A DNA stretch of 64,000 bases from Arenimonas terrae. Its GTDB lineage: Bacteria > Pseudomonadota > Gammaproteobacteria > Xanthomonadales > Xanthomonadaceae. The position numbers and the translations under genes were made by a program. Positions within the stretch are counted from its first letter, which is position 1, and every line of letters begins with the position of its first letter. Shown one piece after another: positions 31,048-43,392 of the stretch. Under the pieces are notes generated by a model. That model did no database searches. It saw only the letters and a program-made list of their open reading frames with translations, and was not told where the DNA came from. The DNA is taken from NCBI RefSeq assembly GCF_006265115.1, contig NZ_SMDR01000001.1, positions 1,240,001-1,304,000 of the forward strand. The letters run 5' to 3'.

Positions 31048-31077
31048 CAACACCTCCGGACGCCACCCGAACGAAAG

Positions 31078-31303
31078 CCCCCTTGGTAAGGGGGCGCGCC
31101 GACAGGCGCGGGGATTGGAAGTGATGAGTCGGGGCCCGCGATCCGCGCAGCGGATCGTGGGAGTTCCTGGGCGAATGCCCGGGAACTACTCCCCCTTAGT
31201 AAGGGGGGCGCGCCAAAGGCGCCGGGGATTGGATGCCTGGCGTCGGGGCCCGAGATTTGCGAAGCAAATCTTGGGAGTTTCGGGGCGCCCGCCCCGAAAC
31301 TAC
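31078..31303. repeat. Two tandem 113-bp hairpin-rich repeat units
   Basis: Unit A is 31078-31190 and unit B 31191-31303. Each contains, in the same order, CCCCCTT/AAGGGGG, a GGCGCG-type hairpin, a 9-bp hairpin (31138-31158 in A, 31251-31271 in B) and an 11-bp hairpin ending in AACT. Although the two copies differ, the stems stay paired: GATCCGC/GCGGATC in A becomes GATTTGC/GCAAATC in B. The last bases overlap the chpC stop. The position between convergent rsmE and chpC suggests a role in transcription termination or mRNA protection. Probably a dispersed genomic repeat family. Confidence 0.8.
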
Positions 31304-31776
31304 GCCGCCTGACTGCTGTTGCCGAGCGCCTTCTGGATCAGCAGCTCGATGCTCAGCAGGTCGGGCACGGCGGCCGGGTCGTCGTTGAGCGTGACGCGCG
31401 AGTGCACGCCCAGCGGCAGTTCCTTGATGTCGTGCGATTCCACCAGCGCCGTGGTGGACACGGTGACCAGGCGCGGGAAGCCCTGCGACAGCACCGCGAA
31501 GAAGGGCAGCTTGCTGTTGCCGCCCAGGGCCTTGAGCACGGCGACCTTGGCGCCGAGATGGCCGTCCTCGTTCGACCAGCCGGCCAGGCGCGAGAACGAC
31601 AGCAGCGGCAGGCGCCAGCCGCGCCAGCGCACGCGGCCGAGCAGCCAGTCCGGCGCGTTCTCCACCGCCTCGGGCTCGGAGTACGTGATGACCTCGGCCA
31701 CGCTGGCGTTCGGCAGCAGCAGCCGGCCATTGGTGACCGTGATCAGGACGCCTCGGATGTCGCGCTGGGAACTCAT
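31300..31776 (-). CDS. chpC: CheW-like protein ChpC
   Basis: A 158-residue CheW-domain adaptor. Key segments are LLLPNASVAEVITYSEPEAV, the WLLGRVRWRGWRLPLLSF strand pair and a terminal helix. In type IV pilus systems ChpC is a second CheW homologue besides PilI, thought to link the sensor kinase to further receptors. It is the last gene of the pilG-to-chpC operon, 14 bases after chpB. Confidence 0.9.
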   Translation of the reverse strand: MSSQRDIRGVLITVTNGRLLLPNASVAEVITYSEPEAVENAPDWLLGRVRWRGWRLPLLSFSRLAGWSNEDGHLGAKVAVLKALGGNSKLPFFAVLSQGFPRLVTVSTTALVESHDIKELPLGVHSRVTLNDDPAAVPDLLSIELLIQKALGNSSQAA

Positions 31777-31790
31777 GGGTATCTCCTAGA

Positions 31791-33488
31791 TCAGGTCCAG
31801 CGCTCGACGATCAGTCGGGCCAGTTCGGACGGCTCGGCCACTTCGGCGCCGGCGGCGATCACCGATTCGGCGGCGCTGGCGTCGAAGCAGGTCGCCGGGG
31901 TCTGCGCCAGCACGCGCGCGCCCGATGCCTTGAGCGCCAACACGGCCGGAACCACCGACGCCGCCGCACCGCTGAGCAGCAGCACCATGCTGTCGGCCGC
32001 CGGCAGCGCCGACACGATCGAGGGAAGATCGCCGCCCTGGGTGAAGGTGAAGTTGCCGTCGCCATGACGGATGCCGACGCCGGGCGGCAGCACCGCCACG
32101 CGACCGGAGAAGGCCAGTTTGCCTTCCAGGGCAAGGTCGAGCGGAAGGCGGCTGGCCTTGGCCAGCTGGCCGACGAGGCGATCGTGCTTGCCCGTATCCA
32201 GGTGCTGGTAAAGCAGCACAGGCACCGGCAGGGTGGGCGGCAGGGCCGACAACAGCTGGCGGACCGCATCGGGGCCGCCCAGGCCGGCAAACACCAGCAG
32301 GGCGCCGTTGTTGATCACGGACTCGTGCACGCTTTCGGCGTCGGCCAGGCTCAGCCCGGCACCGCGGCCGGACTTCGGAGCCTGCCCGCCGGCGGATACG
32401 GCCTCCTCCACGGCGGCGCCGGCTTCGATCTCGGCATCCATGGGAATCAGCTCGAGTGCACCGAATCCGGAGCTGCGTGCCGCCGGTGCGGTCGGCGCGG
32501 GCTTGCCCGGCGAGTCGGCCACCGGCGCCTGGACGGAACTCGAAAAATCCGGCTCTTTCGGTACCTGGCGCTGCTCGCTGGCTTCGTAGGCATCGAGCTG
32601 CGCCGCCAGGGCGGCGACATCGTCGTCCATGCCCTCGGCCAGGGCGACGTCGTCTTCGCTGAAGGACGAGAAGCTCACCGGTCCGTCGGCCAGTTCGACG
32701 TCGGCGAGCAGCGGCTCGTCGGCCAGGTCGAGCGAGTCGGTGTCGTCGGCGACCGTCAGGCGCGCGCCCTCTTCAGGCAGGGCGGAAAGGTCGATGTCCA
32801 TGGACTGTGGATCAAAGTCGAGGCTGTCGTCCAGGCCGGGCACGCCGCGCGGCGTGGTTTCGACCTGGGCATCGGCACGGCCCATCGCCTGCTCCAGGTC
32901 GCCCAGGTCCAGCTCCAGCTCGGCATCGTCCAGGCCGGGCTCGGCAACGGCGGGCTCCACCTCGGCGGTTTCGACCGGCACGTCGGCCAGGGAAGGCGTG
33001 CTCGGCACCCATTCGGACAGGTCCAGCGATTCGGCCGCGTAGTCTTCGAGCTTCTCGTGCGCCATTTCCTGCGCCGGCGTCGGCGGCGCGCCGGGCTGGG
33101 GCGAGAGGTCGAATTCGGGCAGGTGATCGGCGCCGCCGGGCGCCGGCGGCAGCAGGTCGCCGCCCACCAGCTTGGCGGCCAGGTGCCGGGCCCAGCGCGC
33201 AAGGTCCCAACCGTCGAGCTGGCGGGTCACCTCGGCGTCGTCGTACATCACCTCGACGCCTGGCGCGGCCAACAGGTCGTCGAAGCGCGAAAGCGCATCC
33301 TCGACCGCAGGCTCCAGGCTGACCAGGACCACCGAGGGCTTCTCGCCCGCGACGGTGCCGGGATCGAGTTCGGCCGGGTCGCCTTCGGCGACCAGCTGCG
33401 CGCCCAGTTCCGCCAGCGCACGGCGGAGCTGGTCACGCGCGTCGCCCGGGCGGGCCAGCAGCGCAACACGAACCGGCGACTCAAGCAT
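31791..33488 (-). CDS. chpB: ChpB, CheB-like protein with apparently degenerate methylesterase domain
   Basis: A 565-residue product in the chpB position. The N-terminal part (RVALLARPGDARDQLRRALA) looks like a receiver-type fold without the usual phospho-Asp motif. An acidic, low-complexity linker follows (about residues 130-370). Residues about 390-565 align by eye with the CheB methylesterase domain. The active-site Ser-Thr-Gly-Gly region reads FAGLGGPDAVRQLL without the Ser. The His is kept in LLYQHLDTGKH. The catalytic Asp loop (GMGNDG in active CheB) reads SGAAASVV. Two of three catalytic residues therefore seem lost. It probably binds or regulates PilJ or ChpA without demethylating. 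Overlaps chpA by 8 bases. Confidence 0.8.
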   Translation of the reverse strand: MLESPVRVALLARPGDARDQLRRALAELGAQLVAEGDPAELDPGTVAGEKPSVVLVSLEPAVEDALSRFDDLLAAPGVEVMYDDAEVTRQLDGWDLARWARHLAAKLVGGDLLPPAPGGADHLPEFDLSPQPGAPPTPAQEMAHEKLEDYAAESLDLSEWVPSTPSLADVPVETAEVEPAVAEPGLDDAELELDLGDLEQAMGRADAQVETTPRGVPGLDDSLDFDPQSMDIDLSALPEEGARLTVADDTDSLDLADEPLLADVELADGPVSFSSFSEDDVALAEGMDDDVAALAAQLDAYEASEQRQVPKEPDFSSSVQAPVADSPGKPAPTAPAARSSGFGALELIPMDAEIEAGAAVEEAVSAGGQAPKSGRGAGLSLADAESVHESVINNGALLVFAGLGGPDAVRQLLSALPPTLPVPVLLYQHLDTGKHDRLVGQLAKASRLPLDLALEGKLAFSGRVAVLPPGVGIRHGDGNFTFTQGGDLPSIVSALPAADSMVLLLSGAAASVVPAVLALKASGARVLAQTPATCFDASAAESVIAAGAEVAEPSELARLIVERWT

Positions 33489-36400
33489 TGACCGGCTCCA
33501 TGCCCAGCATCTCGAACACGTTCCGCATCAGCTCGACTTCCTGGTAGGGCTTGCCGAGATAGCGGTTGACGCCGATGTCGAAGGCGCGCTGGCGGTGCTT
33601 CTCGCCGGTGCGCGAGGTGATCATGATGATCGGCACGTCCTTCAGGCGCGGGTCCGACTTCATGTTCTGGGCCAGCTCGTAGCCGTCCATGCGCGGCATC
33701 TCGATATCGAGCAGCATCAGGTCGGGCACGCGCTCGGCCATCTTCTCGATGGCGTCCACGCCGTCCTTCGCCGTGAGCACCTCGAAGTTGTGGCGCTCGA
33801 GCACGCGGCCGGTGACCTTGCGCATGGTGATCGAGTCGTCCACCACCATCACCGCCGGGATGCGGCGGGCGACCGGGGCCGGCGCGGCCGCGGCCAGTTC
33901 GACGCTGCGGTCGATGCTGGCCTGGCGGCGCACCAGCGGCGCGACGTCGAGGATCACGACGACGCGGCCGTCGCCCATGATGGTCGCGCCGAAGATGCCC
34001 GGGATCGAGTTGACCTGCGGACCCACCGGCTTGACCACGATTTCCTTGCTGCCCAGCACCTGGTCGATGCAGATCGCGGCGCGCAGGTCGCCGGAGCGGG
34101 CCAGCAGCAGCGGCATCTGCAGGCTGTCCTGCGCCTTGGCCGGGGCATGGCCGATCAGGCGGCCCAGGTCGTGGATGGCGTAGGACTCGCCGGCGTAGGT
34201 GAAGGCCGGAGTGTCGGTGGCGAGCTGCTTGTCGAGCTCGGCGCGGCTCATGCGGCCCACGCCCTGCACCGACGCGATCGGCACCGCGAAGCTGGTGTCG
34301 CCGATCTTGACGAACACCGCCTGCGTGACCGCGAGCGTGAACGGCAGGCGGATGGTGAAGGTACTGCCCTTGCCGACTTCGGATTCGATGCTGAGCGAGC
34401 CGCCGAGCTGGCGGATTTCGCTGTACACCACGTCCATGCCGACGCCGCGGCCGGCCAGGCGGCTGACCGACTGGGCGGTGGAGAAGCCGGTCTCGAGGAT
34501 GAAGCCGTAGAGCGTCTGGTCGGAGACTTCGGCGTCGGCCTTGAGCAGGCCGCGCTCGATCGCCTTCTTCCGGATCGCTTCCTTGTCCAGGCCCTTGCCG
34601 TCGTCGCTGACCTTGAGCACGACTTCGGAACCTTCGCGCTGCACCTGGATGCGGACGGTGCCCTCTTCCGGCTTCTTGAGCTTGCGGCGGTCGGCCGGCA
34701 CTTCCAGGCCGTGCGCGATCGCATTGCGCAGCATGTGTTCGAGCGGCGCGGTCATGCGGTCGAGCACGTTGCGGTCCATTTCGCCGCTGGCGCCGTCGAC
34801 CTTCAGGTTGACCTGCTTGCCGGTCTCGCTGCCCGACTGGCGCAGCACGCGGCGCAGGCGCGGAACCAGCGCGTCGAAGGGCACCATGCGCGTGCGCATG
34901 AGGCCTTCCTGCAGGTCCGAGCTCACGCGCGACTGCTGCAGCAGCAGGGTTTCGTACTGGCGGGTCAGGTCGTCGAGCGAACCCTGCAGGCTGACCAGGT
35001 CGGCTGCGGACTCGGACAGCGAACGCGACAGCTGCTGCTGGGTGGTGAAACGGTCGAGCTCCAGCGGATCGAAGGTCTCGTCGCCGGTGTCGCCCTCGCG
35101 CTGGTAGCGCGCGATGATCTGCGCCTCGGTCTCGATGTCGAGCTTGCGCAGCTGCTCGCGCAGTCGCGTGGTGGTCTGGCCAAGTTCGCCGAGGTTGGCG
35201 CGGAACGCGCCGAGCTGCTGTTCGAGGCGGGCGCGGTAGATGGCCACCTCGCCGGCGTAGTTGACCAGGCGGTCGAGCAGGTCGGCGCGGATGCGGACCT
35301 GTTCCTGCGGCGCGCGGACGCCGCTGCCATCGTCTTCTTCGCCCAGTCCTTCGATCGGCGCCGACAGCGGCGCCATCTCGTTGGCGGCGCCGGTACGCGG
35401 TGCCAGCACCGGACGGACGACGGCGGCTTCCTCGGCGGCGGCAGCCTTGCGGTCCAGCGCCGTTTCGGTCGCCGCGGGGCGCGCCTGGGCCGGTGCCGGC
35501 GCGGCGGTACCGGTGACCTCGAGCGGACGGCCCTTGGCCAGGGCGTCGATCTGCGCGATCAGGTTCGCCGGCAGCACGATGGCCTTGCGCTCGCCGACAC
35601 GCGTGACCATGCCGTGCAGGCGGTCGAAGGCGCGTTCGAGCACGACGACTCCGGTCTGGTCGAGTTCGCGGCGGCCTTCGGCCACCACTTCGAGCAGGGA
35701 CTCCATCGCATGGCCGAGTTCGCCGACCGGGTAGATGCCGGCCATGCGCGCACCGCCCTTGAGCGTATGCAGGTCGCGCTGCAGGCCGATGACGAGCTCG
35801 CGATCGGTGGTGTTGTCGCGCAGGCTGGCCAGCAGCCCATCGGAATGGTCGAGCAGGTCGCCCGACTCTTCCAGGAAGATGTCCAACAGGTCGACGTCGA
35901 TATCGCTGGTGTCGAGTTCGGCGTCCGGATCATCCGGATCCAGGGCCAGCGGGACCTGGGAGGCGGATTCGTCCTGGCCGTCGTCGAGTTCGGCTTCGAC
36001 GGTTTCGGCCACGACGGCGGCTTCGACAGGCGCGGCCTCTTCGACCGCCTCGGCGGGTTCGACGGCTTCCACGACCTCCACGACCTCGAAGTCCAGGACG
36101 TCGAGGGTGGAGACTTCGATCGTTTCGACCGGGAGCTCGGCGACAGACTCCGGCGCAGCGGCGACCGCCGCATCGGGAGAGGTCAGGGCCTCGAGTTCGT
36201 CCAGGCTCAGGCCATAGAAATCGTCTGCCGGCGCCGGGGCCGCGATGGCGGCGGCGGCTTCGGCAGCGGCAGCGGCGGCTTCGGCAGCGGCGGCTTCGGC
36301 AGCGGCGGCTTCGGCAGCGGCGGCTTCGGCAGCGGCGGCTTCGGCTGCAGCAGCTTCGGCAGCAGCGGCTTCGGCAGCGGCGGCTTCGGCAGCGGCGGCT

Positions 36401-39400
36401 TCGGCAGCGGCGGCTTCGGCAGCGGCAGCTTCGGCAGCGGCAGCTTCGGCAGCGGCAGCTTCGGCAGCGGCAGCTTCGGCGGCGGCAGCTTCGGCGGCGG
36501 CAGCTTCGGCGGCAGCGGCTTCGGCGGCAGCGGCTTCGGCGGCAGCGGCTTCGGCCGCAGCGGCTTCAGCAGCAGCGGCTTCAGCGGCAGCGGCTTCGGC
36601 GGCAGCGGCTTCGGCGGCAGCAGCTTCAGCGGCAGCGGCTTCGGCGGCAGCAGCTTCAGCGGCAGCGGCTTCGGCGGCAGCGGCTTCAGCAGCAGCGGCT
36701 TCGGCGGCAGCGGCTTCGGCGGCAGCGGCTTCCGCAGCAGCGGCTTCGGCAGCGGCGGCTTCGGCAGCGGCAGCTTCGGCAGCGGCAGCTTCGGCGGCGG
36801 CAGCTTCGGCTTCAGCGGCGGCAGCTTGCTGCTGCAGCGCCGCTTCAGCCGCGGCGAGCTCGTCCGAGGACAGGCCCAGCGCATCCAGATCGGTCTCGCT
36901 CACCGTGAACGCCGGCACGTCGGCCGCAGCCTCCGCGGGCGCTTCGATGAAGGCGTCGAGCGACAGCAGCTCGCGTTCGCCCAGTTCGGAAGCGCCTGCA
37001 TCGGCGTGGGAGGCCGGCACTTCCTCGTAGGTGAACTCGGGCAGGCCCGACAGGTCCGGCGCTTCCATCGGAACGGCGGTCGGCAGCACGCCGACCGGCT
37101 CTTCCGGATGCATCGGCACGACCGGGCTGGTGGCTTCGGGCAGCACGTCGCGCAGGCGCGCGGTGCGCTGCGCAAGCTCGGCATAACTCGACAGCACGGG
37201 GCGCGGGCGCTCCAGCGCCGTGATCACCTCGCGGATCGCAGCGGCGGCCGCAGCCACCACCGCCACGCCCTCGGCGTCCGGCAGTCTCTGGCCGGCGAGC
37301 GAGCGCTTCATGAAGCCTTCGAGCGGCGCGGTGACGTCGGTGAGCGCGGTGACTTCGGTCATCGCGAACGCGCCATTCATCGTATGCACGGCGCGCAGCA
37401 GCGGGTCGGTGACCGGCTGCGGGCCCGCGGCCGCGCAGGCGGCCAGCCAGGCGTCCACCGTTTCCAGGTGCCCGGCGACTTCGGGCTTGAGGATCTCGAA
37501 CAGCACCGGGTCGATCGCGAACTCGTCGCCTTCGACCTCCGCCGCTTCGACAGCCAGCTCCGGCGCAGGTTCCGGCTCCGCCGCGACGACCGGGGCAGGC
37601 ACGACCGCCTCGACGGCAGGCGCCGCGGCCTTCGGGGCCGAGGCAGCGGAAGGCGCCACCGACACCGGCTGGTAGAAAGCTTCTTCGCCGGCGGCGACAC
37701 GGTCGGCCAGCTGCTGGATGCCTTCGAGGTCGGCGTGGACGGTCTCGCCCTGCAGCGCGGCGCGCAGCAGCGGCAGGGTGTTGAAGGCGTTCTCGATCAG
37801 CGACACCACCGCCGGGCTGGCCGGACGCGTGCCGTCGAGCACGCGGTTGAGCATGCTCTCGACCTTCCAGCTGAACTCGCCCAGGGTCTTGGCGCCGACC
37901 AGGCGGCCGCTGCCCTTGAGCGTATGGAACACGCGGCGGATCGGCCGCAGCTGCTCCATGTTGTCGGGCTGCCGGCGCCAGGTCGGCAGCAGCTGCTCGA
38001 GATTGCCGATCTCTTCCTGGAATTCTTCCAGGAAAACTTCGCGGATCTCGTCGTCGATTTCGTCGCTGCTGCCGTCGAAGCCGGGAATGGGCGGGAGTGC
38101 AGGCACGGCGGCCGCCGGGGCCGGCACTTCGACCTGGGCGGGAACGGAGACGGCTTCGACCGGAACGGCCGCTTCGGCCGGAACCGGCGCGGCTTCGGCC
38201 GGTTCGACCGCGGGTTCGGAGAAGGGGTCGAACACGAGGTCGGCCACCGGTTCGGCGGTGGGCTCGGCCGCCGCGATCACGGCCGGATCGATCGCACCCT
38301 CGGGCAGGCTGAAGGCGTCGGTGAGCTCGATGGCCTCGGCGCTGGCCACCGGCGGTTCGACCGCGGGCGCCGGTGTTTCGGGCACCGGGGCAGGCACCGG
38401 AGCGGGCGTCGGCGCGGCTGCCGGCGGCGGCGCGGCGGCGGCCGGGCGCGCGGCGGGCGCGGCCGCAAGTTCTTCCGCAGGCAGCGGCCAGTAGCCCAGC
38501 GCTTCCAGGTTCTGGCGGGCGATCTCGAGGATCTGCTCGCGCTTCGGGCGCCGATCGCGCAGGGCCTCCAGGTAGTACTCCAGGCCGGCCAGGGCATCGG
38601 CGAGGCGGTCCATCTGCTGGCCGTTGGGCACGCGATGGCGGCGCAGCAGTTCGCTTTCGGTAAATCGACGCACGCCGGCGAGGTACTGGGGTGCGTCCTC
38701 GATTTCGAGGATGCGCAGCGCTCCGGCCACTTCCTCGAGCAGGCGCGGCACGTCGGCGAGCTGGGCGTGGTCCCAGTGGGTTTCGACGAAGGCGACGAAA
38801 CACTGGCGGGCCTGGGCGAAGTTGGCGATCGCCTCCTTCACCAGCACCTCGAGCACCTTGCGGGCTTCGGTGCTGGGCAGGCTCGGTTCTTCGGCGGCGG
38901 CCGCGCCCTCGGGGTCGGCATCGGCTTCGCCGAGGCGCGCCACCTGGTCGTCGAGCGAGGCTTCGACGTAAAGCAGGGCGCCGGCGATATCCAGCAGTGC
39001 GGACTCATCGGCGGCGCGCTGGCCGCTGACGATGGCGTGGATGGCGGTGCGCTGGTCCTGGACGACCCGGCGCGGCACGCCGAGTCCCAGCATGCCGAGC
39101 GTGTCGGCGACGCGGTCGAGTGCCTCGACCTGGTCGTTGAGGCCGGCCGCCGGGGCATCGGGCGTGCGCAGGTGCAGGTCGAGCGCGTCCTTGACGCGCA
39201 GCAGGTCTTCCTTGATCGCACCGGCGACGGTGGACAGCAGGGCGCGGTTGCGGCCGCTGAGGCTGCCGCGGGCATGCGCCAGCTCGGATTCGCTGGGCAG
39301 GTATTCGCCCAGGCCGAACACCTGGCGGATCTCGCCGATGCGGCCGTGGTCGGTCGGCGCGTGCGCGACGAAATACAGAAGCTGCCGCGTCAGCTCCAGC

Positions 39401-40191
39401 GGCGGATCGCTGCGGAAGGCGGCGTCGCCGCCCTCGGCCAGGCGCTTGATCTCGCGCTCGACCTTGGCCAGCGCCTGCTTGAGCGGCTTGCTGGCTTCGA
39501 AGGCGTTCTTGGCCAGCGCGTCAAGCGTGCCGGCGGCGACCCAGAACAGCCGGCGCGCATGCTCGGCGTCGGTGATCGGCACCAGCTGTTCGCAGACGTC
39601 GGTCAGGTCGCGGATCGTGGCCGGGCTGTTGTCGTCCTTGAGCCAGCGCAGCAGCGCCGTCTGGAACAGGTTGCGCAGGGTGTCGGCGCGGCGCTTGAGC
39701 TGCTCGGGCGGCAGCGGCTCGGCGGGCCCGCCAGCGGAGGCCGGCAGGGGGCGCGACAGGTCGGGAGAGAACAGCACCGATTCCGACAGACCCTTCTCGC
39801 CGCGCGGTTCGCGCAGCTCGTTGAGCAGGGGCAGCAGGACGATGGGGATGTCGCGGTGGCCGCTCTGCAGCCGCTCGAGGTAGTCGGGCAGCTGCACAAT
39901 GCCGCGCATCAGCGCGGCGTAGCCGGTTTCCCGCTCGGCGACGCGGCCTTCGACCAGCGCCTTCGCAAGCTGCTCCATCTCCTCGGCGACCATGGCCGCG
40001 CCGTACAGCTCGACCATGCGCAGCGTGCCCTGCACCTGGTGCAGGTAGTTGGCGCAGGCCTTGAGCTGCCCCGGGTCCTCGCCGTCCTCGACGTAGGCTT
40101 CGAGCGCCTGGCGCGCCTGGCGCAAGGTCTCGTCGAGCTCGGGCTTGACCCAGGTGAGCGTGGTGAAATCGATGTTTTCGTGCAGCCTCAT
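33481..40191 (-). CDS. chpA: ChpA/PilL, giant hybrid CheA-type histidine kinase of the Pil-Chp system
   Basis: A 2236-residue cytoplasmic kinase controlling twitching motility and surface responses. Domains in order: an Hpt-like module with H51 (HQVQG); two helical modules without a recognisable phospho-His; Hpt with H756 (HTLKGSG); Hpt-like with H936 (HTMNGA); an Ala/Glu tract (about 1121-1316); Hpt with H1475 (HTLKGGARMAG). Then come the dimerisation domain (VRIRADLLDRLVNYAGE), an ATPase domain (MLRNAIAHGLEVP, GRGVGMDVV), a CheW domain and a receiver with D2162 (LLDIEMPRMDG). Length is comparable to ChpA/PilL of pseudomonads and xanthomonads. Its start follows pilJ by 76 bases. Confidence 0.95.
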   Translation of the reverse strand: MRLHENIDFTTLTWVKPELDETLRQARQALEAYVEDGEDPGQLKACANYLHQVQGTLRMVELYGAAMVAEEMEQLAKALVEGRVAERETGYAALMRGIVQLPDYLERLQSGHRDIPIVLLPLLNELREPRGEKGLSESVLFSPDLSRPLPASAGGPAEPLPPEQLKRRADTLRNLFQTALLRWLKDDNSPATIRDLTDVCEQLVPITDAEHARRLFWVAAGTLDALAKNAFEASKPLKQALAKVEREIKRLAEGGDAAFRSDPPLELTRQLLYFVAHAPTDHGRIGEIRQVFGLGEYLPSESELAHARGSLSGRNRALLSTVAGAIKEDLLRVKDALDLHLRTPDAPAAGLNDQVEALDRVADTLGMLGLGVPRRVVQDQRTAIHAIVSGQRAADESALLDIAGALLYVEASLDDQVARLGEADADPEGAAAAEEPSLPSTEARKVLEVLVKEAIANFAQARQCFVAFVETHWDHAQLADVPRLLEEVAGALRILEIEDAPQYLAGVRRFTESELLRRHRVPNGQQMDRLADALAGLEYYLEALRDRRPKREQILEIARQNLEALGYWPLPAEELAAAPAARPAAAAPPPAAAPTPAPVPAPVPETPAPAVEPPVASAEAIELTDAFSLPEGAIDPAVIAAAEPTAEPVADLVFDPFSEPAVEPAEAAPVPAEAAVPVEAVSVPAQVEVPAPAAAVPALPPIPGFDGSSDEIDDEIREVFLEEFQEEIGNLEQLLPTWRRQPDNMEQLRPIRRVFHTLKGSGRLVGAKTLGEFSWKVESMLNRVLDGTRPASPAVVSLIENAFNTLPLLRAALQGETVHADLEGIQQLADRVAAGEEAFYQPVSVAPSAASAPKAAAPAVEAVVPAPVVAAEPEPAPELAVEAAEVEGDEFAIDPVLFEILKPEVAGHLETVDAWLAACAAAGPQPVTDPLLRAVHTMNGAFAMTEVTALTDVTAPLEGFMKRSLAGQRLPDAEGVAVVAAAAAAIREVITALERPRPVLSSYAELAQRTARLRDVLPEATSPVVPMHPEEPVGVLPTAVPMEAPDLSGLPEFTYEEVPASHADAGASELGERELLSLDAFIEAPAEAAADVPAFTVSETDLDALGLSSDELAAAEAALQQQAAAAEAEAAAAEAAAAEAAAAEAAAAEAAAAEAAAAEAAAAEAAAAEAAAAEAAAAEAAAAEAAAAEAAAAEAAAAEAAAAEAAAAEAAAAEAAAAEAAAAEAAAAEAAAAEAAAAEAAAAEAAAAEAAAAEAAAAEAAAAEAAAAEAAAAEAAAAEAAAAEAAAAEAAAAEAAAAEAAAAEAAAAAAEAAAAIAAPAPADDFYGLSLDELEALTSPDAAVAAAPESVAELPVETIEVSTLDVLDFEVVEVVEAVEPAEAVEEAAPVEAAVVAETVEAELDDGQDESASQVPLALDPDDPDAELDTSDIDVDLLDIFLEESGDLLDHSDGLLASLRDNTTDRELVIGLQRDLHTLKGGARMAGIYPVGELGHAMESLLEVVAEGRRELDQTGVVVLERAFDRLHGMVTRVGERKAIVLPANLIAQIDALAKGRPLEVTGTAAPAPAQARPAATETALDRKAAAAEEAAVVRPVLAPRTGAANEMAPLSAPIEGLGEEDDGSGVRAPQEQVRIRADLLDRLVNYAGEVAIYRARLEQQLGAFRANLGELGQTTTRLREQLRKLDIETEAQIIARYQREGDTGDETFDPLELDRFTTQQQLSRSLSESAADLVSLQGSLDDLTRQYETLLLQQSRVSSDLQEGLMRTRMVPFDALVPRLRRVLRQSGSETGKQVNLKVDGASGEMDRNVLDRMTAPLEHMLRNAIAHGLEVPADRRKLKKPEEGTVRIQVQREGSEVVLKVSDDGKGLDKEAIRKKAIERGLLKADAEVSDQTLYGFILETGFSTAQSVSRLAGRGVGMDVVYSEIRQLGGSLSIESEVGKGSTFTIRLPFTLAVTQAVFVKIGDTSFAVPIASVQGVGRMSRAELDKQLATDTPAFTYAGESYAIHDLGRLIGHAPAKAQDSLQMPLLLARSGDLRAAICIDQVLGSKEIVVKPVGPQVNSIPGIFGATIMGDGRVVVILDVAPLVRRQASIDRSVELAAAAPAPVARRIPAVMVVDDSITMRKVTGRVLERHNFEVLTAKDGVDAIEKMAERVPDLMLLDIEMPRMDGYELAQNMKSDPRLKDVPIIMITSRTGEKHRQRAFDIGVNRYLGKPYQEVELMRNVFEMLGMEPVNA
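36276..36821 (-). repeat. EAAAA-coding 15-bp tandem repeat inside chpA
   Basis: On the coding (minus) strand the unit is GCC GCC GCT GCC GAA with synonymous Ala variants. Glu codons occur at exactly 15-base spacing from 36805-36807 down to 36280-36282: 36 Glu (residues 1129 to 1304) with no insertion or deletion. An irregular Glu stands just outside each end. Every Glu codon is GAA, while Ala codons vary among GCC, GCT, GCA and GCG. The protein segment should be a long acidic alpha-helix. Confidence 0.97.
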
Positions 40192-40267
40192 GCCGAGGTC
40201 CTGTCAGGGTGTGGACGCCGGGAGGAACGTCCGCACCGGAGTGATGCCAGGGGCAAGCCGGGGTGGG

Positions 40268-42313
40268 TCAACCCGGCAGCTTGAAGTCCGCGACCGAACG
40301 GCGCAGGTCGGCGGCCAGCTGGGCGAGGTTTCCGATCGACTCCGCCGTCTGGTTCGCGCCTTGCGACGTCTGGGTGGTGATCTCCTGAATCACGCTCATG
40401 GTGGCCGTGATGTTGGTCGCCGCGGTGGACTGCTGGCGGGCCGCCTGGGAGATGTTCTGGATGAGGTCGGCGAGGTCGTTGGACACCTTTTCAATCTCGC
40501 CCAGGGCCAGGCCCGCGTCCTCGGCGAGTCGGGCACCGGCCACCACTTCCGCGGTGGTCTGTTCCATCGAGCTCACGGCTTCGTTGGTGTCGGACTGAAT
40601 GGTCTGCACCAGGGCCTCGATTCGCTTGGTCGCGTTCGAGGCGCGCTCCGCGAGTCGCTGCACTTCGTCGGCCACGACCGCGAAGCCTCGGCCCGCTTCA
40701 CCGGCGGAGGCCGCCTGGATCGCGGCGTTCAGCGCGAGGATGTTGGTCTGCTCCGAGATGTCGTTGATCAGTTCCACGATCGAGCCGATTTCCTGGGAGC
40801 TTTCGCCCAGTCGCTTGATTCGCTTCGAGGTTTCCTGGATCTGGTCACGGATGTTGTCCATGCCCTGGATCGTCTGGCGCACCACTTCGGCGCCCTTGGC
40901 GGCGATCTGCACGGAGCGCTGCGCCACGTCGGCCGATTCGGCGGAGTTCTTCGACACCTCGTCGATGGAGCTCGCGATCTCGTTGATCTGGGCCGAGGCG
41001 CTGGTGATCTGCTGCGCCTGGTGTTCCGCCGCTTCCGCCAGGTGCATCGCGGTGGCCTGGGTTTCCTGGGCCGCCGCGGCGACCTGCACCGCGGTTTCGT
41101 TAATCGTCGACACCAGGGATCGCAGCGCTTCGACCGCGAAGTTGATGGAGTCGGCGATCGCGCCGGTGATGTCCTCGGTGACGGTGGCCTTTACGGTCAG
41201 GTCGCCTTCGGCGAGCGAACCCATTTCGTCCAGCAGGCGCAGAATCGCCTCCTGGTTACGCTGGTTCAGCTCCTGGGTGGTGCCGAGGCGGCGACGCTGG
41301 TCGCGGAAGATGGTGAACAGCAGTCCCAGCAGGCCGATGACCGCGCCGGCGCCGCCGGCGACCGCCCAGTAGTTATTGGGGAAGACGCGCTGGAGATTGA
41401 TGGAGTCGAAGCTGGCGAACAGCGCCTGGCTGTTCTCGAGCAGCACGTTGGACTCTTCCGAGATCTGGGTCGCCGCGCCCTGCACTTCGGCCAGGTCGGC
41501 GGAGGCGCCGAGCACGGTGTCCAGGTCGCCCTGGGCCTCGGTGTAGAGGGTTTCCACCGCGGCCAGCGCGGCCAGGCCGGCCGGGCTGGTGATGCGGTTC
41601 ACGCCCAGTTCGGCGTTGCCTTCCTTGAAGCCCTGCAGCACCTGCGCGAACACGGTGGCGTCGCGCGAGAGCGCGTCGGCCGCCGAGACGGTGTTCTCGC
41701 CGCCGGCGACGATTTCCGTCACGCGGCGGGACATGCGGTCGGCCAGCACGATCTGGCGGTTGGCGATGGAGATCTGCGAGGCCGGGGCGTTGGCGTCGGA
41801 GAGCGAGCGCACCACTTCGTCGAGCTGGAAGGCCAGTCGCGGCACGCGGGCGGTGAACTGCGCCGCGGTGTCGGAGAGGTTGAGCACGTCTTCCTCGGAC
41901 TGGGTGATTCGCTCGGCGGCGGCGGCCATCGGGGTCCAGGTGTCGGTCACCTTGGCCAGGGCGCTGCTGACGCCGATGGCGTTGTTGTCGCCTTCGTAGC
42001 CGTCGACGCCCTCGGTGTCGCTGCCGGTACGCAGCGCGCCGACGATCGAGTCGATGCGCGACTTGGTCGCCTTGAACTCGGTGAAGGCGTCGGCGTTGCC
42101 GTCGACCGCCTCCTGGGTGTACTTCGCGAGCTGCTGCGAGAGCACCTGCAGGTCCGCCGTCAGGCCTCGCGCGTTGTTTTCCTTGTTGTTGAGGAAAGCC
42201 GCGTAGAGGAAGTTGGCGCCGAACACCAGCAGCGAGATGATCAGGATGAACGCCCAGAAGCCCAGGCCGAAATTAGTTAGCTTGTCGGTGAACGAGCGCG
42301 CATTAGTGCTCAT
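40268..42313 (-). CDS. pilJ: Methyl-accepting chemotaxis protein PilJ
   Basis: Transmembrane receptor of the Pil-Chp system, 681 residues. TM1 is about residues 16-40 ([21 protein letters not shown]). A helical PilJ-type periplasmic sensor follows, then TM2 around [21 protein letters not shown], a HAMP-like linker and the cytoplasmic signalling rod. The rod's tip has [20 protein letters not shown] then [18 protein letters not shown]. It transmits pilus-derived signals through PilI and ChpC to ChpA. Located between pilI and chpA. Confidence 0.95.
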
Positions 42314-42368: not shown

Positions 42369-42929
42369 TTAGGCGGTGGCCTGGCGGAATTCGGGAGTAC
42401 GCGTGAGCAGGGACATGTTGAACACGCCCCAGGTCTGTTCGGCCAGCCGGTAGGCCTGGCCGACGAAATGACCGTAACGGCCATCGTTCTCGCCGGACAG
42501 CTCGGCCCGGTGCGAATCGTTGAAGGTACGCTGGCCGAACAGCTCGTCGATGATCACCGCGACGTTGCCGCCGGCCTGGCGCACCACCAGGCAGCGCTGG
42601 CCTTCGTGCACGACCGTGCGCTCGCCTTCCAGGAACTGCTTGAGGTCGACCACGGGCAGCAGGCTGCCGCGCACGTTGGCGACGCCGAGCATCCAGGTAT
42701 GCGAGCCCGGGACCGGTGTCACGGGCGGAAGCGGCAGGATCTCGACCACTTCGTCGAAGGACGACACCAGGCGGCGCTGGCCCAGGCGGAAACCGACGCC
42801 GCGCCAGTGGCCCGGCGCCTCGACCATTTCCGGCCGGCCCGCGACGTGGGCGAGGGAACGCTCCTCGTAGTCGAGCAGGGTCTCGAAGGGGCCGGAGCGC
42901 TTGTTCTGCGAGGGCGAGGTCTTGGCCAT
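42369..42929 (-). CDS. pilI: CheW-like adaptor PilI
   Basis: A 186-residue CheW homologue coupling PilJ to ChpA. ATG 42929 was chosen because it follows the pilG stop by only 7 bases and gives the usual PilI N-terminus with SGPFETLLDYEERSLAH. Typical core segments are WRGVGFRLGQRRLVSSFDEV, WMLGVANVRGSLLPVVDLKQ and VIIDELFGQRTF. Part of the pilG-pilI-pilJ-chpA-chpB-chpC operon. Confidence 0.93.
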   Translation of the reverse strand: MAKTSPSQNKRSGPFETLLDYEERSLAHVAGRPEMVEAPGHWRGVGFRLGQRRLVSSFDEVVEILPLPPVTPVPGSHTWMLGVANVRGSLLPVVDLKQFLEGERTVVHEGQRCLVVRQAGGNVAVIIDELFGQRTFNDSHRAELSGENDGRYGHFVGQAYRLAEQTWGVFNMSLLTRTPEFRQATA

Positions 42930-42936
42930 GGCGGAA

Positions 42937-43326
42937 TCAGCCGGCCGGAACGTACTTGCGGATGGCCGAAAGCAGCTCATCGCGGGTGAAGGGCTTGGTC
43001 AGGTACTGCTCCGAGCCGACGATGCGGCCGCGCGCCTTGTCGAACAGGCCGTCCTTGGACGACAGCATGATCACGGGCGTGCCCTTGAACATCTGGTTGT
43101 TCTTGATCAACGCACAGGTCTGATAACCATCGAGCCGCGGCATCATGATGTCGACGAAGACGATCTGCGGCTGGTGGTCGGCGATCTTGGCGAGCGCCTC
43201 GAAGCCGTCGGTCGCCGTCACCACATCGCAACCCTCCTTCTTGAGCAGGGTCTCGGCGGTCCGGCGGATCGTCTTCGAGTCGTCAATGACCATGACCCGC
43301 AAGCCGGCCAGGTGGTTTTCGTCCAT
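42937..43326 (-). CDS. pilG: Twitching motility response regulator PilG
   Basis: A 129-residue stand-alone receiver. The sequence VMVIDDSKTIRRTAETLLKK, phospho-acceptor D59 in VFVDIMMPRLDGYQTCALIK, and SSKDGLFDKARGRIVGS then YLTKPF are close to PilG and distinct from PilH. It promotes pilus extension through the assembly machinery. ATG 43326 is preceded by GGGGAG; an ATG four codons upstream is the alternative start. First gene of the operon; no pilH follows it. Confidence 0.95.
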   Translation of the reverse strand: MDENHLAGLRVMVIDDSKTIRRTAETLLKKEGCDVVTATDGFEALAKIADHQPQIVFVDIMMPRLDGYQTCALIKNNQMFKGTPVIMLSSKDGLFDKARGRIVGSEQYLTKPFTRDELLSAIRKYVPAG

Positions 43327-43392
43327 CTCACTCCCCATAACAATGCAGTCCCTGGCTGCGCGGGCGCCGTCCGGCAGCCCGCAGATTCCTAG

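Follow-up and report, generated by a model that had tools for sequence, protein, structure and literature searches.

ChpA, the CheA-type kinase of the Pil-Chp system of type IV pili, combines several Hpt domains with H-kinase_dim, HATPase_c and CheW domains and a receiver, and its gene is clustered with PilJ, CheW-like and response-regulator genes. We know of no reason given for the many Hpt modules of ChpA, nor of an account of what holds these modules apart. Coding minisatellites are established, as are EAAAK-type helical linkers. Single-helix spacers are also known, prokaryotes included; PMC5378345 reports single alpha-helices (SAHs) in many prokaryotic proteins, and SAH domains of myosin in which about 76% of residues are charged, with equal signs. 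Here we describe chpA in a stretch of 64,000 nucleotides of Arenimonas terrae (contig NZ_SMDR01000001.1, positions 1,240,001 to 1,304,000), the whole of which we call the window and in which all positions are counted. The window protein has the domains and the gene neighbourhood of ChpA, but differs from it in a long periodic tract of EAAAA units within the linker between two Hpt regions, HptB and HptC. We consider it probable that this tract is a monomeric helical spacer which is selected for its physical state, is rebuilt by repeat turnover, and makes the kinase core less directly accessible to HptA and HptB. The features concerned are as follows.

33481-40191, minus strand: chpA, a multi-Hpt CheA-type kinase of 2236 aa with a C-terminal receiver (Pfam and open reading frame).
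37657-38055, minus strand: HptA region, residues 713-845 (segment chosen by us, recovered in relatives).
37057-37419, minus strand: HptB region, residues 925-1045, with HTMNG at the His motif (segment chosen by us, recovered in relatives).
35920-37056, minus strand: the repeat-bearing HptB-HptC linker, residues 1046-1424 (region mapping on relatives).
36268-36807, minus strand: 36 exact EAAAA units, residues 1129-1308 (protein pattern and Tandem Repeats Finder).
36259-36867, minus strand: a helix predicted to run without a break through residues 1109-1311 (203 residues; at 0.15 nm per residue, about 30 nm; AlphaFold2).
35512-35919, minus strand: HptC, residues 1425-1560, the last Hpt ahead of the kinase core (best Pfam Hpt stretch 1434-1525; blocks of predicted local distance difference test, pLDDT, of 83-95).

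The reading frame of chpA is uninterrupted along the full gene, tract included. Tandem Repeats Finder, run on the DNA with no assumption about the protein, found a period of 15 with 36.9 copies, 93% matches and 0% indels, and its score of 721 was the highest of 21 rows. The strict EAAAA periodicity and the exclusive use of GAA for Glu, both pointed out in a first-pass annotation made from the sequence, were recovered: the 36 units are uninterrupted and GAA occurs in 36 of 36, against 100 GAA to 99 GAG in the rest of chpA. The position of the tract between the upstream Hpt regions and the Hpt ahead of the kinase core was likewise borne out by Pfam and region mapping, as was a net charge near -36, the units holding 36 Glu and zero other charged residues. 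Its extent had to be revised, as the annotated interval 36276-36821 is about one unit off and 180 residues, not about 190, stand in exact register. Ala codons in the tract are GCC 87, GCT 54, GCG 2 and GCA 1, and in the remainder of chpA GCC 176, GCT 16, GCG 109 and GCA 10.

The same annotation had supposed that the DNA merely drifted while the protein pattern was kept, which does not fit the array. Only 11 distinct 15-mers are present, and identical ones are adjacent 14 times compared with 4.4 expected from shuffling (0 of 2000 shuffles as high); hence the array grew and was homogenised by local duplication, together with silent change. Differences between neighbouring units number 33 silent and 0 amino-acid changing, and at least 7 distinct substitution types occur, all of them silent (P about 2e-4 to 5e-4 by a simple neutral count). 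Variation that is silent throughout would hardly be expected had the protein not been under selection, with the caveat of the common history of the units. The head-to-tail units of 15 bp, a multiple of three, with local duplication are a mark of a coding minisatellite, and block duplication and silent unit variants are further points of likeness; the difference is that here units are exchanged between lineages while a helix-favouring make-up is retained.

The closest relative by tree is Arenimonas daejeonensis (L020, a single 3.03-Mb chromosome record; 97% identity over 601 columns). It carries 4 + 31 EAAAA units with GAA for Glu in 35 of 35, but its silent variants are ordered differently and include runs of variants that the window array has seldom or not at all. 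From this reordering we conclude that the array turns over within the time that separates species, and that EAAAA persists as its unit. The second array, with its variants reordered, also leaves an assembly artefact unsupported. In L020 (5935-7050) the tract frame differs from that of HptB and HptC, which places a frame shift on each side, either a sequencing error or a mutation; G003, with the same coordinates as the L020 record, has a listed completeness of 86%, as might be expected if indel errors were numerous. In-frame units of 15 bp, block-wise duplications and an altered order in the nearest relative would also be seen if frequent changes in tract length adjusted signalling within populations, in the style of a contingency locus. 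In-frame units alone are however unable to switch chpA off, and the comparison is of one genome per species, so that we regard such tuning as highly improbable.

To place the tract among relatives, contigs were scanned with a 129-aa HptC stretch and the best 80 of 114 loci, mostly with Lysobacteraceae titles, were taken. Seven regions of the window protein were mapped on them and four linkers cut out. The HptB-HptC linker was readable in 62 of the 81 proteins (80 relatives and the window); 19 were left out, 17 without HptB upstream (16 contig ends inside the linker, plus L057) and 2 with frame breaks (L020, L027). A tract was called where a 60-residue window had at least 60% self-match at any lag from 2 to 15, in linkers of at least 60 aa. 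By this test a long periodic tract is present in 55 of the 62 HptB-HptC linkers, window included, a proportion valid for near kin only as the relatives were chosen by HptC closeness. In the other three linkers the same test gave 0 of 53, 0 of 63 and 0 of 24, though these linkers, with medians of 73, 83 and 45 aa where that of the HptB-HptC linker is 339.5, offer fewer chances for a tract by being shorter.

The best lags of the 55 tracts were 5 (24 tracts), 15 (15), 10 (9), 6, 12 and 13 (2 each) and 8 (1); lags of 7, 11 or 14 were best in none. Classified by pattern, the 81 proteins comprise EAERx in 39, with the unit form EAER[LVIA], a 10-mer in 12, EAAAA in 9 (window counted), xAEEAR in 5, a 13-mer in 2, an 8-mer in 1, xEAEA in 1 and none in 12, six of the last being cut-off contigs. 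Tracts have a median length of 223 aa (range 71-357), measured as unions of 60-residue windows that overshoot the ends, giving 243 for the 180 of the window, and the whole linker ranges from 149 to 845 aa. Their composition is A 31%, E 31%, R 14% and L 9%, and the repeats of near kin are thus mostly Glu/Ala/Arg/Leu units of helix-favouring make-up. Pro amounts to 1.0% inside tracts against 6.5% in the remaining linker, and Gly to 1.1% against 3.5%.

Net charge is negative in 55 of 55 tracts (median -37), and the linkers of two relatives without repeats are strongly acidic as well (L031, -103; L036, -91), which is what would be seen if the charge itself were the function, the tract being a polyanionic bristle or adaptor for a basic partner or for ChpA solubility, with shape irrelevant. 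Pure charge has however no need of the Arg found in plenty in the EAER, xAEEAR and 10-mer tracts, some of which are near neutral (L064, -3; L062, -6), and we find this explanation improbable.

It should be noted that the contig stops within chpA in 18 of the 80 loci, and in 16 of these it does so in the HptB-HptC linker (P about 2e-11 if ends were spread evenly along chpA). Assemblies seem to break at the tract, hence tract lengths from such genomes are unsure, and short-read assemblies may mis-size it. Contigs titled Rhizobium (L009), Rubrivivax (L013) and Actinomycetota (L057) carry a chpA near those of Lysobacteraceae, for L009 and L057 also by the tree; these are probably mis-binned metagenome contigs. 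Further, 7 of 27 genomes of the same genus had no HptC match at E 1e-30, and two of the seven, the small genomes G007 (2.2 Mb) and G026 (2.1 Mb), have a listed completeness of 100% and may have lost Pil-Chp.

Placed on a tree built from the conserved regions (80 rows; L013 was omitted, having no core), the unit labels require 22 changes compared with a shuffled mean of 38.6 (0 of 200 shuffles as low), and 17 when the six cut-off rows carry no label. The EAAAA label taken by itself shows no more clustering than chance would give (7 changes; the mean of the shuffles is 7.8), one reason being that cut-off and xAEEAR rows sit among the EAAAA rows. The Arenimonas loci L016-L018, all with xAEEAR, make up a single starred clade. 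The branch by which this clade is nested among EAAAA species has a support of 91 and no star, and L016 holds both units. It seems as if the unit has been replaced within Arenimonas. Tentatively, we extend this to the ChpA of Lysobacteraceae, as a possibility about which we keep some doubt: one linker may be selected for a long, seam-free acidic helix that is met repeatedly by new units (EAAAA, xAEEAR, EAERx, 10-mer, 13-mer), the rod staying while its parts are all replaced, and the EAAAA version may be a natural rod, salt-bridge-free and purely anionic, that has one charge in every 0.75 nm or so and is of a different kind from charged SAHs.

The shape was predicted with AlphaFold2 on residues 925-1560 of the window protein together with six relatives (7 sequences). 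In accordance with the single straight helix of nearly 30 nm proposed at first pass, the model has the unbroken helix listed above, as a prediction, with pLDDT 75-89 in the 10-residue blocks 191-380 of the fragment and 60 and 52 at the two ends of the helix. Both flanks are coil (pLDDT about 31-56), and the predicted template modelling score (pTM) of 0.32 makes the placement of domains meaningless. For the EAER-type L063 (Vulcaniibacterium, with five relatives) one helix of 236 residues was predicted (pLDDT 76-94 over blocks 181-400; pTM 0.28) in the same coil-rod-coil layout, and in both models most of the remaining linker lies at pLDDT about 30-56.

Hydrophobic periodicity at 96-106 degrees per residue exceeded 95 of 100 shuffles in 0 of 55 tracts, while the positive controls gave the signal, namely typed heptad and hendecad sequences and the PilJ helices of the window, whose value was reached by 0 of 500 shuffles; a coiled coil was accordingly rejected for the tract. 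Searched against solved structures, the window tract had 2 weak matches (E 0.06 and 0.31). The EAER rod had 12 up to E 1, the best being a collagen VI alpha 3 chain at 1.2e-5, and none was judged a relative.

As predicted, a long, seam-free, Pro/Gly-poor and monomeric helical spacer, the tract would resemble charged SAHs such as that of myosin; it has no hydrophobic seam of the coiled-coil kind. The likeness is closer for the EAER, xAEEAR and 10-mer tracts of relatives, which have Glu-Arg pairs at i+3/i+4. The window tract departs from SAHs in lacking the network of opposite charges at these spacings, with 0 basic residues, 0 i+3/i+4 pairs and no salt bridge. With engineered (EAAAK)n rigid linkers it shares an Ala-rich helical unit of five residues with Glu at every fifth place, but it is natural, lacks Lys and is far longer (36 units). 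A crude helix-coil estimate with parameters for 0 C gave 0.88 helix for (EAAAA)36 and, with ion pairs, 0.78 for xAEEAR. The EAAAA helix would then be held by Ala alone and the other units by Glu-Arg pairs.

Outside the near kin, a match was found in 77 of 81 genomes of an order sample and 42 of 96 of a class sample, and 80 loci, a subset of all matches (60 order and 20 class), form the wider set. By the same test tracts occur in 11 of the 80, 12 in total, and the linker preceding HptC holds 9 of them; HptB was not located in all of these. Among 49 loci from the order's remaining families, 7 have a tract before HptC, with units that include an EQER 5-mer (L143), AEAE, TEAE, VELTEP and EP, and none was found in the 7 loci of genus g3, tentatively Xanthomonas or kin, or before HptC in the 20 loci of the class sample. 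The linker before HptC is thus a repeat hotspot in the order. In L109, L118, L121, L123 and L126, which have no tract, the linker is long, acidic and by eye disordered-looking, and the rod does not seem to be needed by every ChpA.

Several of these results weigh against selection for a helical spacer. Only 2 of 11 further family members have a tract (L120, EAERx; L129, IEAEA) and 9 have none, and in 7 of the 62 close linkers it is missing or weak. The first-pass annotation had named unstructured sequence in place of the tract as evidence against its proposal, and these two groups of relatives go part of the way in that direction. The non-helical EP and VELTEP repeats, also expanded ahead of HptC elsewhere in the order, point to what may be a tolerant, slippage-prone site. 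The ratio of amino-acid-changing to silent differences (pN/pS) is below 0.3 in 37 of 41 repeat arrays but above it in 4 (L059, 1.86), and the array limits were set from the protein pattern, which lowers pN; tests that count units as independent overstate, as units share history. As regards the helix, AlphaFold2 may favour it in Ala/Glu-rich sequence, strict five- and six-residue units are arithmetically without a helix-face signal, so that the seam test largely restates the lags, and the helix-coil estimate with ion pairs was as low as 0.13 for EAERL, 0.01 for EAERV and 0.03 for the 10-mer, whose rods hence rest on one AlphaFold2 model.

Many of these observations would be accounted for by neutral expansion, in which a tolerant acidic linker in a GC-rich genome gathers in-frame minisatellites, Glu/Ala units dominate through their common codons and the helix is a by-product without function. 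The varying linker length, the differing units and the close relatives without any, the concentration of distant tracts before HptC, some of them non-helical, and the silent variants in another order in A. daejeonensis all agree with it. Against it stand the three other linkers of the same proteins, which have no tract by the same test (with the reservation that they are shorter), the depletion of Pro and Gly within tracts, and the rarity of amino-acid changes between units in most arrays. On balance we think it unlikely, though it is the alternative to be taken most seriously.

Returning to the helical spacer, we suggest the following mechanism, which draws on the predicted helix and on general knowledge of ChpA. 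The tract would be an alpha helix without a seam, probably monomeric, about 200 residues and about 30 nm long, with a flexible acidic stretch on either side. It would act as a semi-rigid spacer that holds the N-terminal half (N-terminal region, HptA and HptB) off HptC and the catalytic core, at a distance of about 30 nm in the window protein and roughly 10-50 nm in relatives. With such a rod in place, HptA and HptB would have less direct access to the core; phosphoryl groups might reach them via response regulators, and HptA and HptB could serve as an outlying phosphate store. At the DNA level, slippage or unequal recombination may add or remove 15-bp units in frame, altering length with the frame intact. 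Selection would then keep the helical, acidic, seam-free state and neither the sequence nor the exact length. The wide spread in length of linkers and tracts makes a ruler of fixed length unlikely. A rigid spacer and a length-variable region had been offered as alternatives at first pass; the comparison suggests both, with variable length upheld and the setting of reach, taken as an exact length, not.

Directly after the tract stands a short motif YG[LM]S-ELEA-T-P, here YGLSLDELEALTSP (residues 1326-1339; 36175-36216, minus strand), which is perhaps a docking peptide. By pattern search and alignment it is present in 13 of 80 relatives, in Arenimonas and near kin, and the pattern of YGLSLDELEALTSP is also found in L031, a relative without a repeat tract.

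Around chpA, domain searches identified the following genes.

42937-43338, minus strand: response regulator gene.
42369-42980, minus strand: gene for a CheW protein (PilI-like).
40268-42313, minus strand: gene for a protein with PilJ and MCPsignal domains.
31791-33488, minus strand: gene for a CheB_methylest protein (ChpB-like).
31300-31776, minus strand: gene for a second CheW protein (ChpC-like).

This order we take to be the pil-chp cluster layout. Pfam matches of ChpA itself are Hpt (4 stretches), H-kinase_dim, HATPase_c, CheW and Response_reg, and no NCBIfam family was above its cut-off among the best 25 of 87. An antisense open frame of 2370 aa spans all of chpA (33172-40284, plus strand), and L123, L129 and L143, too, have as their longest open frame one other than chpA, exceeding it in length (strand unverified); this is likely a codon-bias effect, and gene finders may err here. 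Beside the chpC-like gene lies a 114-bp tandem repeat of about 2 copies (31077-31310; 77-79% matches) containing short inverted pieces, e.g. CCCCCTTAGTAAGGGGG.

Our searches of the open-licence literature listed no paper with a title or abstract beginning on a repeat rod in ChpA, and passages of two papers on ChpA/CheA architecture (PMC12632253, PMC10542144) mention no periodic linker tract. What would be new, if true, is a fixed linker site with exchanged units together with an all-anionic rod without salt bridges. It would show clearly how selection can act on a physical property while the sequence turns over fast, and the ChpA rods would supply natural rigid linkers. With rods of many natural lengths and chemistries, the ChpA family would offer a ready test of Hpt distance versus rigidity.

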